Source of the DNA: Actinomycetospora succinea
GTDB taxonomy: Bacteria; Actinomycetota; Actinomycetes; Mycobacteriales; Pseudonocardiaceae
Assembly: GCF_004363095.1 (NCBI RefSeq)
Contig: NZ_SNYO01000002.1
Coordinates: 806,001-870,000 of the forward strand
Length of the DNA: 64,000 nucleotides
Direction of reading: 5' to 3'
The first letter of the stretch is position 1; the number at the start of each line of letters is the position of its first letter. A program made the translations under genes and the position numbers. The notes beneath the pieces are model-generated. The model saw only the letters and a list, made by a program, of their open reading frames with translations. It made no database searches and was not told the DNA's origin. Positions 34,457 through 42,860 of this stretch are shown here, piece by piece.

Positions 34457-35854
34457 ATGGCGCGTTCAGCGACGTACGTCGCCGGGGTCGACTCCTCGAC
34501 CCAGGCGACCAAGGTCCTCGTCGTCGATCCCACGGACGGGAGCGTGGTCCGCGAGGCGCGGCGACCCCATCCCGACGGCACGGAGGTCGACCCGCGGGCG
34601 TGGTGGGACGCGCTCGCGGGCGCGCTCGGCGAGGTCGGCACCGACGACGTCGCGGCGATCGGCGTGGCCGGTCAGCAGCACGGGATGGTGCTGCTCGACG
34701 AGTCGGGACAGCCGGTGCGCGACGCCCTGCTCTGGAACGACACGCGCTCGGCGCCCGACGCGCGGGACCTGATCGACGAGCTCGGCGGGGCCGCGGCGTG
34801 GGCGGAGGCGGTCGGCACCGTGCCGGTCGCGAGCATCACCGCCACCAAGCTGCGCTGGACGTCGCGGGCGGAACCGGAGAACGCCGACCGGGCGCGCACG
34901 GTGATGCTGCCGCACGACTGGCTGACCTGGCGCCTCGCCGGCGCGCCCGCCGAGCCGACCACCGACCGCGGCGACGCCTCGGGCACTGGCTACTGGTCGA
35001 CGGTCACCGGCGAGTACCGCCCCGACCTGCTCGAGATGGCGTTCGGGCGGGGCCTCTCGGTGCCGCGGGTCGCCGGGCCGGGCGAGGTCGTCGGGCGCAC
35101 GCCGGACGGGCTCGCGATCTCCGCGGGGACGGGCGACAACGCCGGCGCGGCGCTGGCGATCGGGCCGGCGCCGGGCGAGGTCGTGATCTCGATCGGCACC
35201 TCGGGCGCGGTGTTCACCGGGCACGACCGGCCCTCCACCGACGCGACGGGGCTCGTCGCCGGGTTCGCCGACGCGCGCGGGGGCTACCTGCCGCTGCTCG
35301 CCACGCTCAACGCGGCGCGGGTGCTCGGCGCGGGCGCGTCCCTGCTCGGCGTGGACCCGGACGGCTTCGACGCGCTCGCCCTCGACGCGTCCCCGGGAGC
35401 GGACGGGCTGACCCTCCTGCCGTACCTCGACGGCGAGCGCACGCCCAACCGCCCGGACGCGCAGGGCCGCTACGTCGGGCTGACCACGGCCAACGCGACC
35501 CGCGAGAACCTGGCGCGCGCGACCGTCGAGGGCATGCTGTGCGGGCTCGCGGACGCGGTCGAGGCCCTCGTCGACCAGGGCGTCCCGGCCCGCCGCGCCC
35601 TGCTCATCGGCGGCGGGTCGCGCTCGCGTGCCGTCGCCGACCTCGCCCCCGACGTGCTGGGCCTGCCCGTCGAGGTGCTCTCGCCGCAGGAGTACGTGGC
35701 CCTCGGCGCCGCACGCCAGGCCGCCTGGGCGCTGCACGGCGAGGAACCGGGCTGGACCGTGGCGCGCGAGACGACCCGCGACGTCACCGACTCCTCGATC
35801 TCCGACCAGGTCCGCTCGCGCTACGCCGACGTCCGCGACGGCCGCGCTCGCTAG
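34457..35854 (+). CDS. xylB: Xylulokinase-like FGGY carbohydrate kinase
   Basis: 465 residues. N-terminal phosphate-binding segment GVDSSTQATKVLVVD, GVAGQQHGMVLLDESG, LLWNDTRSAPDA, catalytic Asp in TDRGDASGTGYW, and the C-terminal ATP-binding part SAGTGDNAGAALAIG with SIGTSGAVF are typical of D-xylulose kinase. It phosphorylates D-xylulose (or a related ketose or polyol) for the pentose phosphate pathway. Together with the ABC importer 3.5 kb away it suggests growth on a pentose or pentitol. Start ATG at 34457 is 33 bases from the divergent channel gene. Confidence 0.88.
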   Translation: MARSATYVAGVDSSTQATKVLVVDPTDGSVVREARRPHPDGTEVDPRAWWDALAGALGEVGTDDVAAIGVAGQQHGMVLLDESGQPVRDALLWNDTRSAPDARDLIDELGGAAAWAEAVGTVPVASITATKLRWTSRAEPENADRARTVMLPHDWLTWRLAGAPAEPTTDRGDASGTGYWSTVTGEYRPDLLEMAFGRGLSVPRVAGPGEVVGRTPDGLAISAGTGDNAGAALAIGPAPGEVVISIGTSGAVFTGHDRPSTDATGLVAGFADARGGYLPLLATLNAARVLGAGASLLGVDPDGFDALALDASPGADGLTLLPYLDGERTPNRPDAQGRYVGLTTANATRENLARATVEGMLCGLADAVEALVDQGVPARRALLIGGGSRSRAVADLAPDVLGLPVEVLSPQEYVALGAARQAAWALHGEEPGWTVARETTRDVTDSSISDQVRSRYADVRDGRAR

Positions 35855-35866
35855 GTCCGGCGTGTT

Positions 35867-36021
35867 CCAGCGTGGCAGCCACGCTGACACTCAACGTCAG
35901 GAAATCCGCCACGATCATGGGCTGCGAGCGCCCTGGGTGCGCGCGATCCGGGTACGAGCGATGCGGCATCGCTGGCATGTGACGCCAGGATCGCCACAGG
36001 CTCGCTCGCGCGACACGCCGA
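35867..36021 (-). repeat. Mosaic palindrome repeat, copy 3 (modules B+A)
   Basis: On the plus strand it reads the complement of module A (CCAGCGTGGCAGCCACGCTG, then a variant of the TGACGTT palindrome ending CAACGTCA) and then the complement of module B (AGCGATGCGGCATCGCT, then GACGCCAGGATCGCCAC and GCGACACGCCG). On the minus strand the order is therefore B then A, opposite to copies 1 and 4. It lies after the xylulokinase stop. Confidence 0.75.
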
Positions 36022-36100: not shown

Positions 36101-36604
36101 TCAGGCGGCGCGGTCCTCGGAGGCCTCGCCGGCCTCGGGGGTCGCGTCCGAGGACGCGGCGCTCTCCTCCGGCGGGGCGATGCCGTCGATGGCGATGCGC
36201 TGGGCACCGGGCTCGACGGGCTCGGCGTGGGCGCCGACGACGCGCAGGGTCAGGACCCCGGCGTCGTAGGAAGCGCTCACCGCGTCGGCGTCGACGTGCT
36301 GCGGCAGCGTGAAGCTCCGGCGGAACGAGCCGCGGCGGCTCTCACGCCAGCCCTCGCCGGACTGCTCGTCACGGCGCTCGCCCCGCACGGTCAGGCGGTG
36401 GCCGTCGACGTCGACGGTCACGTCCTTCGCGACGTCCACGCCCGGGAGCTCGAGGCGCACGACCGCGTCGTCGCCGTCGCGCACCACGTCGGTGGTCGGC
36501 GCGTAGAAGGCCTGAGGGCGGCTCGGGGCCGGGCGGCGGAACAGGGCGTCGGCGACGGCGAACGGATCGGCGAAGCGCGGGCCCCAGGGAACGAGAGTGC
36601 TCAT
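36101..36604 (-). CDS. Hsp20/alpha-crystallin small heat-shock protein
   Basis: 167 residues. The alpha-crystallin domain spans about residues 38-125: PTTDVVRDGDDAVVRLELPGVDVAKDVTVDVDGHRLTVRGERR, then RRGSFRRSFTLPQHVDADAVSASYDAGVLTLRV, including the conserved AxxxxGVLTL-type motif. It is an ATP-independent holdase that keeps unfolded proteins soluble. The C-terminal 40 residues are acidic, Ala/Glu/Ser-rich, and lack an obvious IxI motif apart from IAIDGI. GGAGGA is close to the ATG. An HspR-type operator candidate is upstream. Palindrome repeats flank the gene on both sides. Confidence 0.92.
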   Translation of the reverse strand: MSTLVPWGPRFADPFAVADALFRRPAPSRPQAFYAPTTDVVRDGDDAVVRLELPGVDVAKDVTVDVDGHRLTVRGERRDEQSGEGWRESRRGSFRRSFTLPQHVDADAVSASYDAGVLTLRVVGAHAEPVEPGAQRIAIDGIAPPEESAASSDATPEAGEASEDRAA

Positions 36605-36684: not shown

Positions 36685-36732
36685 TCCATGCGCAGCAAGA
36701 TCTCCTGCCACGGCGAGTCAGCCATCGAGCTG

Positions 36733-36881
36733 GCGGACTTCCTGACGTTGAACGTGAGCGTGGCCGCCACGCTGGAACACCCCGTGCCTCGCCACCGCGG
36801 CGTGTCGCGTCAGCGAGGATGTGGCGAGCCTGGCCCTATCGGTGTGCTGAATGGGATCGCCAGCGATGCCGCATCGCTCGC
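36733..36881 (+). repeat. Mosaic palindrome repeat, copy 4 (modules A+B)
   Basis: Module A (a one-mismatch variant of the TGACGTT palindrome, then GCGTGGCCGCCACGC) is followed by module B (CGGCGTGTCGCG, TGTGGCGA and the perfect palindrome AGCGATGCCGCATCGCT). It lies in opposite orientation to copy 3 on the other side of hsp20. Its module B overlaps the last codons and stop codon of the gene at 36836-37189. Confidence 0.75.
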
Positions 36882-37189
36882 AGACCCCGGGGCAAGGCGC
36901 CGTCGGCGCGGAGGGCGGCGACGAAGGCGTCGGTGTCGGCGCGCATCGACGTGCCCTCGCGGCGGGGGTGCGCGGCGATCCACGCGTCGAGGCGCCGACC
37001 GAGGTCCTGCCCCGGAGCGTCGTGCACCTCGGCGGGCAGCAGGCGCGCCAGCACGCGGCGGCGCTTCGCGCGCAGGGCGTCGGCCTCGAGTGCCACGCGC
37101 GCCGGGTCCACCCCCGACGGCGCGGGTCCGCCGGCCACCAGCGCCGCGAGCAGCTCCGCCTGCCGCCGCGCCAGGTCCTCGCGGCTCAC
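36836..37189 (-). CDS. Small partner protein of the DUF692 oxygenase
   Basis: 117 residues from a GTG that overlaps the stop of the DUF692 gene (GTGA). The sequence VSREDLARRQAELLAALVAGGPAPSGVDPARVALEADALRAKRRRVLARLLPAEV followed by a helical region ending AWIAAHPRREGTSMRADTDAFVAALRADGALP looks like a small all-helical protein. DUF692 enzymes commonly need a small partner that presents the substrate peptide (MbnC, DUF2063 and others); this gene occupies that position and recalls the SCO6045-like proteins of Streptomyces. The final residues (AMRHRWRSHSAHR) are encoded by the intergenic repeat at 36733-36881, so the native C-terminus may have been altered. Confidence 0.7.
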   Translation of the reverse strand: MSREDLARRQAELLAALVAGGPAPSGVDPARVALEADALRAKRRRVLARLLPAEVHDAPGQDLGRRLDAWIAAHPRREGTSMRADTDAFVAALRADGALPRGLRAMRHRWRSHSAHR

Positions 37190-38010
37190 GCGCGGACCCG
37201 CGCGTGGACCGCCCGCAGCGCCGCGAGCTCGGCGGCCAGCTCGTCGTCGGGCGGGTAGCGGTCGTCGCGCTCGAGCAGCACGGCCGGCGGGCGGCGCCGC
37301 GCGCACAGCTCCTCGAGCAGCTCGAGCACCGGCGCGGTCAGCGGGTGGGCGTGGGTGTCGTGGTAGACGCCGTCGCGCTCGACCCCGCCCGCCGCGTGCA
37401 CGTACACGACGCGCTCGAGGGGCAGCTCGTCGAGCACCTGCTCCGGGTCCTGCCCGAGGTTCACGGCGCTCGCGTGCAGGTTGGCGACGTCGAGCAGCAG
37501 CCAGGCACCGGTCCGCTCGCACAGCTCGGCGAGGAACGCGCCCTCGGACATCTCGGCGTCCGGCCACGCGAGCAGCGGCGCGATGTTCTCCAGCGCCAGC
37601 GGCACGCCGAGGCCCGCCTGCGTCGCGCGGACGTTGTCGACGAGCACCCCGAGCGCCTCGCGGGTCCGCGGCACCGGCAGCAGGTGCCCCGACTCGAGCC
37701 CGCCCGCGCGGACGAACGCGACGTGGTCGCTCGCGAGCGGCGCGCCGAGGGCGTCGGCGACGGCCGCGAGGTGCTCGACGCGGTCGTGGCGCAGCGGTTC
37801 GGCGCCGCCGAGCGAGAGCGACACCGCGTGCGGCAGCACCGGCACCCCGCGGGCCCGGAGCGTCGCCAGCGACGTCGGCAGCTCGCCGGCGTGCAGGTCC
37901 TCGGCGACGGCCTCGACGAAGTCGACGCCCGCCATCCGCTCGACGGTCAGGTCGATCTCGCGGCGCCAGCCGATGCCGACACCCTCCGGGCCGCGGGGGA
38001 CGACGGTCAT
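37186..38010 (-). CDS. DUF692 multinuclear non-heme iron-dependent oxygenase (MNIO)
   Basis: 274 residues, TIM-barrel. Residues that match the metal-binding set of the MbnB family are His61 (LPHAVS), His96 (SDHVAF), Glu141 (ALENIAP), Asp174, Asn177 and His179 (LLDVANLHA), His205 (VVYVHAAGG), His220/His222 (DTHAHP) and Glu247 (LLERDD). The opening GVGIGWRREIDLTVER is also typical. MNIO enzymes use two or three iron atoms and O2 to remodel cysteine, or other residues, of ribosomal peptides (oxazolone/thioamide in methanobactin, thiooxazole in bufferins, others). The gene overlaps a Gly/Cys-tailed membrane protein upstream (ATGA) and a small partner gene downstream (GTGA), so the tail is the likely substrate. 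Confidence 0.9.
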   Translation of the reverse strand: MTVVPRGPEGVGIGWRREIDLTVERMAGVDFVEAVAEDLHAGELPTSLATLRARGVPVLPHAVSLSLGGAEPLRHDRVEHLAAVADALGAPLASDHVAFVRAGGLESGHLLPVPRTREALGVLVDNVRATQAGLGVPLALENIAPLLAWPDAEMSEGAFLAELCERTGAWLLLDVANLHASAVNLGQDPEQVLDELPLERVVYVHAAGGVERDGVYHDTHAHPLTAPVLELLEELCARRRPPAVLLERDDRYPPDDELAAELAALRAVHARVRA

Positions 38011-38927
38011 CCCCCGCACCCGCCGCCGCCACCGCCGCAGCCGCCCCCGCCGCCACCGCAGGACGAGCCGCCCCCGCACGACGAGCCGCCGTCGAACCCG
38101 CCGCCGTCGTAGCCGCCGCCCCCGCCGCCCGTCGGCGCGGCGAGCAGACCCGCGATCTCCTGGTCGGGGTACATCGACATCCCGCCGACCGCGACCATCC
38201 CCGCGATGCCGAGCGTCGCGGCGGCAGCCGGGCTCAGCGAGCGCCCGTGCGTGGCGAACACCGACTCCCACATGGTGTCCCGCGCGGCCTTCACGGTCGC
38301 CGTGCCCTTGCGGGTCGGCCGGTGCGTCGACACGACCACGACCAGGAGCGCCGCGCACGCCGCGAGCACGAGCAGCACCACGAGGAAGAACACCGAGGCA
38401 CCGCGCGCGACACCGGCGGCGAGGCGCACGAGCCCGAGCACGACGCCGGCGCCGACCACCAGGAACGCGATGTTCTTGCACCGCTGCACGGCGGCGGGGT
38501 CGTGGAGGAGGCCGCGCCGCTGCGCCGCCACCTGCAGGTCGCGCACCGACGCGGCCCCGCGCATCCGCATCGTCAGGCCCATCGGCGTGACGCCCGACGG
38601 CGAGGCGGCCACCGCGTCGACGACGTCCTCGTCGAGCTCGCCGATCGGCGGGCGTCCGGTCGCCGTCAGGTGGCGGTCGCGGCCCACCCGCAGCACCCCG
38701 CCCTCGACGAGCCGGGCGATCGCGGCCTGCACGAGGCGCGCCGGCCCGCCCGCGACGAGCGCGAGGTCCTCGACGGTGGCGTCGGTCGCCGGCGCGTCAC
38801 CCTCGGCGCGAGCGTGGCGACGGTCGAGCCGGCGGACCAGGACCGGCGCCACCACCGCGGAGGCGACGATGAGCAGGACGTAGATGCCGAGGAAGGCCGG
38901 GCCGGAGATGCCCCAGGTGTTCCCCAC
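38007..38927 (-). CDS. TIGR04222-like membrane protein with Gly/Cys-rich C-terminal tail
   Basis: 306 residues. Layout: one N-terminal membrane helix (FLGIYVLLIVASAVVAPVLV), a cytoplasmic domain of about 120 residues with winged-helix-like repeats (VEDLALVAGGPARLVQAAIARLVEGGVLRV), two further helices (about 150-200), an amphipathic segment, and a tail from about residue 265 made almost only of Gly, Ser, Asp and four Cys (Cys284, 290, 297 and 304, spaced by 5-6 residues). The architecture corresponds to what I recall of TIGR04222, a family often found beside DUF692 genes. The regular Cys-Gly spacing looks like a RiPP core fused to a membrane carrier. It is the first gene of a three-gene operon with ATGA and GTGA overlaps. 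Confidence 0.85.
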   Translation of the reverse strand: MGNTWGISGPAFLGIYVLLIVASAVVAPVLVRRLDRRHARAEGDAPATDATVEDLALVAGGPARLVQAAIARLVEGGVLRVGRDRHLTATGRPPIGELDEDVVDAVAASPSGVTPMGLTMRMRGAASVRDLQVAAQRRGLLHDPAAVQRCKNIAFLVVGAGVVLGLVRLAAGVARGASVFFLVVLLVLAACAALLVVVVSTHRPTRKGTATVKAARDTMWESVFATHGRSLSPAAAATLGIAGMVAVGGMSMYPDQEIAGLLAAPTGGGGGGYDGGGFDGGSSCGGGSSCGGGGGGCGGGGGGCGG

Positions 38928-41442: not shown

Positions 41443-42186
41443 TCACCAGTCGCCGAACAGGCCCCCGCCGTCGAAGCCCCCGCCGTCGAAGCCGGGGTCC
41501 ATCCCCGGGTCCATGCCCGGGTCCATGCCACCGTCGAACCCGCCGCCCATGTCGGCGGCCATCGCGTCGCCGCCGACCGCCGCGGCACCGAAGCCGGAGA
41601 ACAGGGCGCTCGCGACCATCATCCCGCCGAACGCGCCGACGCCGCCGAGGAGCATCGGCTTCCACCACGGCTCGGAGTACCAGCCGGCGGGCACGGGACG
41701 GCCGCCGACCATGCCGCCCGGGTAGTAGTGGTTGTTCTGCGCCGAGGGCTGCGGCGAGCCGGTGACGCTGCGGCCCTCGACGTCGACGGACTGCTCGGCG
41801 TCCAGCGACCCGGCGCGCGACCGCTCGGCCGAGCCGGGGAGCTCCGGGCCGGGGTCCATGCCCATGGCCGTGCGGGCGGCGCGCACGTAGTAGAGGCCCT
41901 CGAGCGCGGTGTCGGAGACCAGGCGGTACTGCGGCGCGGTGCTCGCCTGCTCGAGCTGCGAGCCGGCGGCGGTGTAGCGCTCGGCGGCGTCCGCGAGCGC
42001 CTGCTTCGAGGGGTCGTCGGAGCCCGTGAGGCTGAGCACCTGGCCGCCGAGGCGCTCGTACCAGCGGCGGGCCTCGGCCTCGGCGTCGCCCAGCTGGCTC
42101 TGGGCGGACGTGGCCCGTCCCCGCCCGCGCGTGAGCACGAGGGCGAGCAGGCCGCCGATCACGAGGACGATGAGCAGGAGTTCCAC
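41443..42186 (-). CDS. Membrane-anchored protein with Gly/Asp/Pro-rich C-terminal tail
   Basis: 247 residues from a GTG at 42186. An N-terminal helix (LLLIVLVIGGLLALVL) is followed by a helical extracytoplasmic or cytoplasmic domain (QLGDAEAEARRWYERLGGQVLSLTGSDDPSKQALADAAERYTAAGSQLEQA), an Asn-His-Tyr-Tyr-containing linker, a second hydrophobic stretch (MLLGGVGAFGGMMVASALFSGFGAAAVGG) and a tail with GMDPGMDPGMDP repeats and three FDGGGF-type units. Similar proteins are widespread in actinomycetes, some annotated DUF1542. I know no function. The low-complexity tail recalls the Gly/Cys tail at 38007-38927 but lacks cysteine. Confidence 0.72.
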   Translation of the reverse strand: MELLLIVLVIGGLLALVLTRGRGRATSAQSQLGDAEAEARRWYERLGGQVLSLTGSDDPSKQALADAAERYTAAGSQLEQASTAPQYRLVSDTALEGLYYVRAARTAMGMDPGPELPGSAERSRAGSLDAEQSVDVEGRSVTGSPQPSAQNNHYYPGGMVGGRPVPAGWYSEPWWKPMLLGGVGAFGGMMVASALFSGFGAAAVGGDAMAADMGGGFDGGMDPGMDPGMDPGFDGGGFDGGGLFGDW

Positions 42187-42359
42187 GTCATCGACTCTGC
42201 GCCCGTCTCCTGAGAAGCGGCTGTGAACCACCTGGGGGTCCGGCGCCGACCCACCCCGATGATCAGGGGCGACGTGGTGCACATCGGACCGACGCCCGGG
42301 GTCGATGACGCGCTCCTGATCTTCGGAGGGGCCGGCGTGACGAGTGCGCCGCGTTCCGG

Positions 42360-42404
42360 CGAAGGGCGCCCCTCGCCCGTCTACCCGACCGAAGGTGCCC
42401 TTCG
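42360..42404 (-). terminator. Stem-loop at the end of the ilvD-GNAT pair
   Basis: GAAGGGCGCC pairs with GGTGCCCTTC (one wobble) around a 23-base loop, with one more flanking C/G pair on the outside. It overlaps the last codons of the GNAT gene on the minus strand and lies before the promoter region of the next gene. Confidence 0.45.
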
Positions 42405-42860
42405 CTCGGAATCCGGCAGCGCTCGGGAACGCCGCATGGGCACGTGCGGGATCCCGTCCTCGTCGTAGCCGGGGCCGTCGACGACGAAGCCGAGCCGCTC
42501 GTAGAACCCCTGCGCCCGCACCTGGGCCCCGAGCACGACCGGGCCGTCGATGCCCTCGAGCACCGCGCGCATCAGCGCCGCCCCGGCGCCGGTGCTGCGG
42601 TGCTCGGGCGCGGTGACGATGCGGCCCAGCCGGGTGTCGGGCCCCTCGCCGAGCACCCGCAGGTACGCCGCGATCTCCCCCGCCGGCCCGCGCGTCCACA
42701 CGTGCTCGGCCTGCGCGTCGAGGCCGTCGAGCTCCTGGAAGGCGCACTCCTGCTCGACGACGAACACGCGCACGCGCAGGGCGAGCAGGTCGTAGAGGTC
42801 GCCGACGGAGAGCTGGGAGAAGGGCGCCCGGAAGAGGTCAGTCAAAGCCGACGACGGCAC
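42381..42860 (-). CDS. GNAT acetyltransferase, ElaA type
   Basis: 159 residues from a [31 protein letters not shown] is the ElaA-specific start, and the acetyl-CoA loop is [24 protein letters not shown] with [12 protein letters not shown]-like segment [16 protein letters not shown]. The acceptor is unknown. Its start overlaps the end of ilvD by 23 bases; a TTG at 42845 would shorten the overlap. It is most likely co-transcribed with ilvD. Confidence 0.88.

Follow-up and report, generated by a model that had tools for sequence, protein, structure and literature searches.

Three overlapping genes on the minus strand of a 64,000-nucleotide stretch of Actinomycetospora succinea DNA (contig NZ_SNYO01000002.1, positions 806,001 to 870,000; referred to as the window) encode, in this order, a membrane protein of the TIGR04222 family, an oxidative enzyme of the MNIO family and a 117-residue helical protein (Table 1). 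The first gene overlaps the second by ATGA (38010-38007) and the second overlaps the third by GTGA (37189-37186), reading frames and overlaps being just as a first-pass annotation, made from the sequence alone, had described them. Profile searches of the whole genome returned one match to PF05114, the MNIO profile, and one to TIGR04222.

Table 1. Features of the three-gene operon, with positions in the window
Feature	Positions	Strand	Basis and remarks
TIGR04222 membrane protein, proposed substrate	38007..38927	minus	306 aa, GTG start; profile match
First membrane segment, residues 9-31 of helix 9-42	38835..38903	minus	Model and charge bias; N-terminus predicted outside
Helical domain and beta hairpin, residues 52-137	38517..38774	minus	Model and charge bias; predicted cytoplasmic
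Second and third membrane helices, residues 144-174 and 180-198	38334..38498	minus	Model and hydropathy
Gly-rich C-terminal tail, residues 266-306	38010..38132	minus	Cys 284, 290, 297, 304; end Cys-Gly-Gly
MNIO (DUF692, PF05114) oxidative enzyme	37186..38010	minus	274 aa, ATG start; profile and motifs
PME-type 2-like partner protein	36836..37189	minus	117 aa, GTG start, helical
Dispersed palindromic repeat, core	36859..36880		Within 3' end of partner gene

The substrate candidate, the enzyme and its probable partner

The first protein scores 96 bits against the NCBIfam profile TIGR04222 (cut-off 43) and the second 268 bits against PF05114 (cut-off 25), which places both in their families. The third has no match over any Pfam or NCBIfam cut-off; the profile search that the annotation had recommended was therefore clear for two of the three proteins only. 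The membrane protein ends in the Gly-rich tail with four cysteines that had first drawn attention to the locus: its last 41 residues are mainly Gly, joined by Ser, Asp, Tyr, Phe and Cys, and the cysteines lie where they had been placed. In the structure model the tail is of low confidence, with a pLDDT below 50 for residues 268-289 and 291-303.

In the enzyme, the residues of the iron site and the ERD motif (H61, H96, E141, D174, N177, H205, D218, H220, E247 and D249) are invariant in 20 sequences and align with those of the solved MNIO 3BWW, in agreement with the intact His/Glu/Asp/Asn metal set noted in the first pass. The iron-binding roles of the individual residues are taken in part from two papers: by our own residue mapping, N177, D218 and H220 appear to fit the site-3 ligands N175, D242 and H244 of HvfB (PMC13419390), and the ERD Asp would fit the catalytic Asp249 of FonB (PMC12668002). 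At the position of FonB Phe250, which helps to select the residues around the Cys (PMC12668002), 19 of 20 relatives carry Asp or Gly by the same kind of mapping. The closest named relative of the enzyme, from Actinomycetospora lutea, is 91% identical to it, and the operon of that species (L080) has the same make-up.

The third protein is very likely the partner of this MNIO, as had been proposed on first sight of its small helical sequence, because its gene directly follows that of the enzyme, because the two are fused in Streptomyces-like genomes and because one orthologue matches a published exemplar. A first reading of MNIO loci showed, in most of them, a sequence similar to the third protein, either as a separate gene directly after the MNIO or as an extension of the enzyme, and a profile of the partner domain matched 78 of 80 named MNIO-anchored loci, which as a sample favour close relatives. 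Enzyme and partner domain share one open frame in 24 of these 78 loci, in all seven loci of the Streptomyces-like genus g52 in that first reading, and in 16 of 16 checked g52 loci without a Cys tail or without TIGR04222. SCO6045 of Streptomyces coelicolor is presumably another such fusion. The natural fusion supports the pairing of MNIO and third protein, and it provides a ready-made single-chain enzyme for biochemistry. Manley et al. (2026, PMC13419390) fused HvfB and HvfC artificially in the same order and measured a higher activity than with co-expression of the two. The passages on fusions examined in Antoine et al. (2025, PMC12452194) mention no natural MNIO-partner fusion.

The orthologue in question, from Saccharothrix sp. 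NRRL B-16314 (L100), is 115 residues long from its ATG and agrees with the PME-type 2 exemplar WP_033442786 in strain and length, these rather than the accession itself being what was compared. Assignment to PME-type 2 is thus based on position, fusion and exemplar, not on fold. PME-type 1 partners combine DUF2063 with an RRE domain; the window's protein, 117 residues long and without a DUF2063 match above threshold, does not qualify as one and agrees with the type 2 description, which has no DUF2063. DUF2063 is the sole Pfam family matched by more than one member of the partner family (12 of 43, which do not include the protein of the window; best E 0.0015, with no match above the cut-off among those listed), and an hhalign comparison of the partner profile with three DUF2063-type proteins gave E 0.0021 at a probability of just 13%. 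The fold model of the partner is confident and helical (pLDDT 90.4), and a Foldseek search of the PDB with it gave no solved-structure match, the best hit reaching only E 4.8.

The 3' end of the partner gene also contains a copy of a dispersed repeat, which therefore codes for some of the partner's last residues. Imperfect inverted copies of this repeat (35841-36020 and 36731-36880) lie on either side of an HSP20 gene (36101-36604), and the genome contains 67 copies of its 21-base palindromic core at up to two mismatches, as opposed to 0 for a reversed control.

Cysteine tails accompany MNIO genes

Genomes were sampled from the order (121 genomes), the class (394 genomes, matches at E up to 1e-10) and the phylum (296 genomes). 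TIGR04222 (over the cut-off) and MNIO were each present in 42 genomes of the order sample and occurred together in 39. The class sample, surveyed for co-occurrence as the first-pass annotation had suggested, had TIGR04222 in 102 genomes, PF05114 in 94 and both in 78, and the phylum sample had the two families in 11 and 15 genomes, respectively. Co-occurrence exceeds chance in counts that ignore relatedness.

A first reading of tails covered 82 TIGR04222 genes over the cut-off from the order and phylum samples, 78 of them uncut. Where the match lay no more than 350 bp from an MNIO match, 35 of 36 uncut genes had at least three tail cysteines and 34 of 36 ended in Cys-Gly-Gly, compared with at least two cysteines in 14 of 24 genes at 350-4000 bp and in 3 of 18 genes that were further off or had no MNIO on their contig. 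In the 36 adjacent genes, the C-terminal 45 residues together hold 164 cysteines, preceded by Ser (82), Gly (79) or Thr (3) and followed by Gly (131), Ser (32) or Ala (1).

A second reading added 87 class matches, including all 25 genes of the 24 MNIO-less genomes (21 further class TIGR04222 genes, all from MNIO genomes, fall outside the two readings). In the pooled set of 163 uncut genes out of 169, with cysteines counted in the last 30 residues, at least two cysteines were found in 64 of 70 genes less than 1 kb from an MNIO, 14 of 33 at 1-4 kb and 3 of 15 further away on the same contig, as well as in 6 of 18 genes with the MNIO on another contig and 3 of 27 without MNIO in the genome. The same held among Gly-rich ends: where Gly, Ser and Cys make up at least 60% of the last 30 residues, 87 of 92 genes from MNIO genomes but only 2 of 8 from MNIO-less genomes have at least two cysteines, and counting Asp and Asn as well changes these figures to 87 of 95 and 2 of 13. 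Fisher values of 3.1e-7 for all genes and 9.9e-6 for Gly/Ser-rich ends ignore relatedness and are descriptive. Of the MNIO-less genes with at least two cysteines (in G473, G559 and G571), that of G473 has a true Cys tail and ends 140 bases before the contig end, so that a following MNIO could be absent from the assembly; the ends of the G559 and G571 genes are not Gly tails.

Among the 80 named loci, chosen by MNIO similarity and hence biased, 69 contain at least one TIGR04222 gene with at least two cysteines after the domain. Six of the other 11 are apparently cut by contig ends (L120, L125, L140, L145, L148 and L149) and five are from Streptomyces (L139, L144, L146, L147 and L156). Only 33 of 113 Cys-tailed genes in the named loci end in Cys-Gly-Gly; this ending is therefore typical of the MNIO-adjacent copy in the order sample and not universal. 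There are also Cys-tailed TIGR04222 genes whose MNIO is far away or on another contig (G014:C169, G111:C1:4919093, G489, G497, G572, G697 and G720), for which modification would have to occur in trans unless contig breaks mislead.

Membrane side and origin of the tail

In the structure model of the membrane protein (pLDDT 84.5) there are three long helices that span the membrane, with a helix-and-hairpin domain between the first and second membrane segments (TM1 and TM2) that may be winged-helix-like, judging from the order of its elements; the borders of TM1 (residues 9-31) were set by reading. Where a fourth crossing would be, the model gives short helices only. Over 44 relatives, Arg and Lys together number 2.5 per 100 residues before TM1, 29.0 after TM1, 19.4 before TM2, 5.4 between TM2 and TM3 and 20.2 after TM3, a bias that puts the N-terminus outside and both the domain and the region after TM3 inside. 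Hydropathy points the same way: the three helices reach 1.6 in 44, 38 and 43 of the 44 members, as against 12 of 44 for the candidate fourth segment, which in the other 32 stays below this value and in some of them bears three or four charges. On this evidence we consider a cytoplasmic tail likely, contrary to the periplasmic tail that Antoine et al. deduced from models of selected members (PMC12452194).

The membrane part of TIGR04222 appears to be distantly related to DUF2207. Seven weak TIGR04222 matches were fetched from the order sample, and the six that were scanned all proved to be DUF2207_C proteins over the cut-off, two of them with long Gly tails without Cys. In an hhalign comparison, tail-trimmed TIGR04222 domains matched DUF2207 proteins with E 1.4e-4 at a probability of 53%, and in Pfam searches DUF2207_C was matched by 2 of 44 TIGR04222 members (best E 0.0088). 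The window's own protein has no DUF2207_C match over the Pfam cut-off, and the link is thus one at the level of the family. Compared with known structures, the TIGR04222 alignment gave mostly linkers and low-complexity stretches, along with very weak helix-turn-helix matches. Since Gly tails without Cys occur in DUF2207 and since some MNIO-less genomes have Gly/Ser/Asp-rich TIGR04222 ends free of Cys, the simplest order of events may be that a Gly tail of the DUF2207 type came first and the cysteines were added later.

Within the window, a minus-strand frame without Pfam family (41443-42747), about 2.5 kb upstream of the operon, likewise has a membrane-protein-like C-terminal part and ends in another tail, rich in Gly and Asp and without Cys.

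A membrane-anchored substrate for an MNIO?

Enzyme, substrate and partner very probably form a conserved set. As to what the set does, we lean towards a reading in which the cytosolic MNIO and its PME-type 2 partner oxidise the tail cysteines of a resident membrane protein, giving a row that would probably bind copper and probably lie in the cytoplasm. The gene overlaps suggest that substrate, enzyme and partner would be made in a coupled fashion. The partner would then bind the MNIO and assist in establishing the mixed-valent iron site of the enzyme, in the way described for HvfB and HvfC, and the active site, to go by the tails, would take one Gly/Ser-Cys-Gly/Ser unit after another without fixed spacing. 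Each Cys would undergo a four-electron oxidation, by analogy with characterised MNIOs most likely to 5-thiooxazole, and the outcome would be soft-metal ligands in a row on a membrane anchor, which would probably bind copper and, judging by charge bias and hydropathy, probably face the cytoplasm. FonB favours Cys-Gly dyads and small residues behind the Cys (PMC12668002), and 5-thiooxazole with copper binding has been reported for PME-type 1 systems (PMC12668002, PMC13419390). Other products are also found among the clusters that have PME-type 2 proteins (PMC12452194), which is why thiooxazole is only a guess here, and one less likely than not.

Several observations weigh against oxidation of a cytoplasmic tail. 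The genes read from 20 of the 91 MNIO genomes include no uncut TIGR04222 gene with a Cys tail. The MNIO of G084 stands at a contig start, with the preceding gene outside the assembly, in G713 a Cys-tailed gene is truncated at a contig end, G133 has one tail Cys, and the MNIO match is partial in G438 (142 bits) and far above the rest in G606 (366 bits); the remaining 15, however, all belong to g52, have a tail-less TIGR04222 and offer no such excuse, and in 14 of them the MNIO is fused to its partner (the fifteenth, G582, is not included in that count). Tail-less copies are also frequent in operons that hold several TIGR04222 genes. Operons without tail Cys, which the annotation had named as the case that would speak against its proposal, thus do occur in part, and the proposal is partly supported. 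A tree-based test of independent pairs (FastTree of 140 domains, on which the tail changes at least 13 times, with eight supported pairs) was not significant for the association of tail and MNIO (median p 1 for MNIO in the genome and 0.25 for MNIO within 1 kb), with on average 0.7 and 3.0 pairs, respectively, in the same direction and 0.0 in the opposite one. The case for thiooxazole, moreover, comes from systems whose precursors are secreted and whose partners are of PME-type 1, the tail is periplasmic according to Antoine et al. (PMC12452194), and the window's own fourth segment is borderline (hydropathy 1.58, uncharged), making a fourth crossing possible in this protein.

This last point bears on the idea that the tail is the substrate but lies outside, the modification taking place in the cytosol before the last segment crosses or during its passage, and the tail then serving as an outer-face metal tail, like a membrane-anchored bufferin (Antoine et al. 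2025). The published models of selected members favour it (PMC12452194), as do the dozen members with a sufficiently hydrophobic last segment; the weaker and in part charged segments of the other 32, the short helices of the model and a charge bias that fits three crossings with the C-terminus inside all argue for the cytoplasm, and we regard an outside tail as rather unlikely. Quite unlikely, too, is that the MNIO acts elsewhere and that the tail cysteines are plain thiols which bind metal or form disulphides, the genes being linked by one stress response. The g52 clade with its fused MNIO and no Cys tail, the common tail-less operon copies and the outcome of the relatedness-corrected test all speak for this, and yet the tail is present in 35 of 36 adjacent genes, and a one-strand scan of 20 loci of the exceptional group for Cys-dense frames of 25-400 codons found no better substrate candidate, some of these loci being only 5-6 kb long. 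We think it improbable, finally, that the membrane protein is a giant leader from which the modified tail is cut off and released as a free ribosomal peptide. A low-complexity tail with variable number and spacing of cysteines would suit such a peptide, and a gene family with a subtilase as its scanned member lies downstream in 23 of 80 named loci. All 23 of these loci fall within L080-L125, though, with none in L126-L159, the consensus has by eye no conserved motif before the tail, and no protease or exporter was found by Pfam among the operon's scanned neighbours in the window, namely TrkA_N, FGGY kinase, HSP20, DEAD helicase and SMI1/KNR4 genes and one frame without family.

To find a free Cys-rich peptide in the operon, the loci of the order and phylum samples were scanned for frames of at least 50 codons that end in a Gly/Ser-rich stretch with Cys, and five such frames lie outside TIGR04222 matches: three look like out-of-frame noise and one, in L037, is a TIGR04222 gene under the cut-off. 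In L058, a frame of 164 codons (G073:C3:7886-8380) that is rich in Cys and ends in a Gly/Ser/Cys stretch directly follows the MNIO in a genome without TIGR04222 match; its scanned part has no Pfam match, and it may be a diverged TIGR04222 relative or a separate precursor. Genes of the DUF4142 type were discarded as g52 substrates, three gene calls having 0 Cys and a fourth, which probably begins too far upstream, having 2. A small zinc-ribbon-like protein with ACSG at its end was also found near Cys-tailed operons, mostly on the opposite strand, which makes it a neighbour and not a replacement substrate. SelR (msrB), chlorite-dismutase-family and amine-oxidase-family neighbours, the latter two presumably hemQ and hemY, appear to reflect shared chromosomal order, are not among the window's scanned neighbours and were assigned no role. 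A family with a DUF4142 scanned member recurs near the MNIO in Streptomyces-like loci (by eye in L064, L065, L072 and L073, and in 16 named loci among L126-L159, for example L149:5057-5866). In Streptomyces-like loci a PTH2-domain gene lies upstream of the MNIO (L140:5094-5858, with relatives in 15 named loci) and is perhaps the adjamnio-II of PMC12452194.

If MNIOs do act on a resident membrane protein, a protein-sized, membrane-fixed substrate would extend their chemistry from natural products to fixed parts of the cell, the MNIO products of the cited papers being peptides, and many actinobacteria would gain their own copper or redox device; the topology of the tail would decide whether metals bind inside or outside the cell. 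The fuller picture, in which an old DUF2207-like Gly tail acquired cysteines and became a cytoplasmic, anchored array of oxidised metal-binding Cys residues, served by an enzyme that is fused to its partner in Streptomyces-like genomes, is offered as a tentative whole, less likely than not.

The operon is a new member of an already described kind of candidate system. The first-pass annotation had taken the combination of TIGR04222 and DUF692 to be undescribed, and was anticipated here by Antoine et al. (2025), who count TIGR04222 proteins, found mainly in Actinomycetota and in some cases with PME-type 2 partners, among the putative substrates of MNIOs and leave the product open (PMC12452194). 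More than a quarter of the TIGR04222 proteins in that work lack a C-proximal Cys, and a third of the TIGR04222 genomes lack an MNIO. An experimental product of this system was not found in the literature searched, which excluded most subscription papers; a TIGR04222 peptide is mentioned in a Pseudonocardia cluster (PMC5183585), and a table in PMC4991794 includes S. coelicolor SCO6045 among the genes under control of the redox-sensing HbpS-SenS-SenR system. To the published picture the present analysis adds the enzyme-linked cysteines, the natural fusion, the membrane side of the tail and the DUF2207 link.

The TIGR04222-MNIO-PME-type 2 clusters of PMC12452194, with WP_033442786 as exemplar, consist of the same three families as the window. 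They differ from our account in that PME-type 2 proteins were predicted in at least 10% of TIGR04222 clusters, compared with 78 of 80 loci in our biased sample, and in that the tail was held to be periplasmic, whereas we argue for the cytoplasm. Bufferins, oxazolin and fontiphorin—the 5-thiooxazole captophorins (PMC12668002, PMC13419390)—share with the window an MNIO, a partner and several cysteines, often before Gly. Their partners, however, belong to PME-type 1, and their precursors are peptides that mostly carry a signal peptide, while the substrate candidate in the window is an integral membrane protein and its partner has no DUF2063 signature. Nor does this 306-residue protein resemble a bufferin or captophorin precursor, that is, a short peptide with DUF2282, EGKCG or a Cys-Lys motif, given that it has no such Pfam match and no Lys adjoining a tail Cys. 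DUF2207 proteins (PF09972/PF20990), for their part, show weak homology to TIGR04222 from the cytoplasmic domain to TM3 and a Gly tail in two of six cases, and differ by an extra N-terminal domain (which passed the cut-off in three of the six) and by the absence of Cys from both of these tails.

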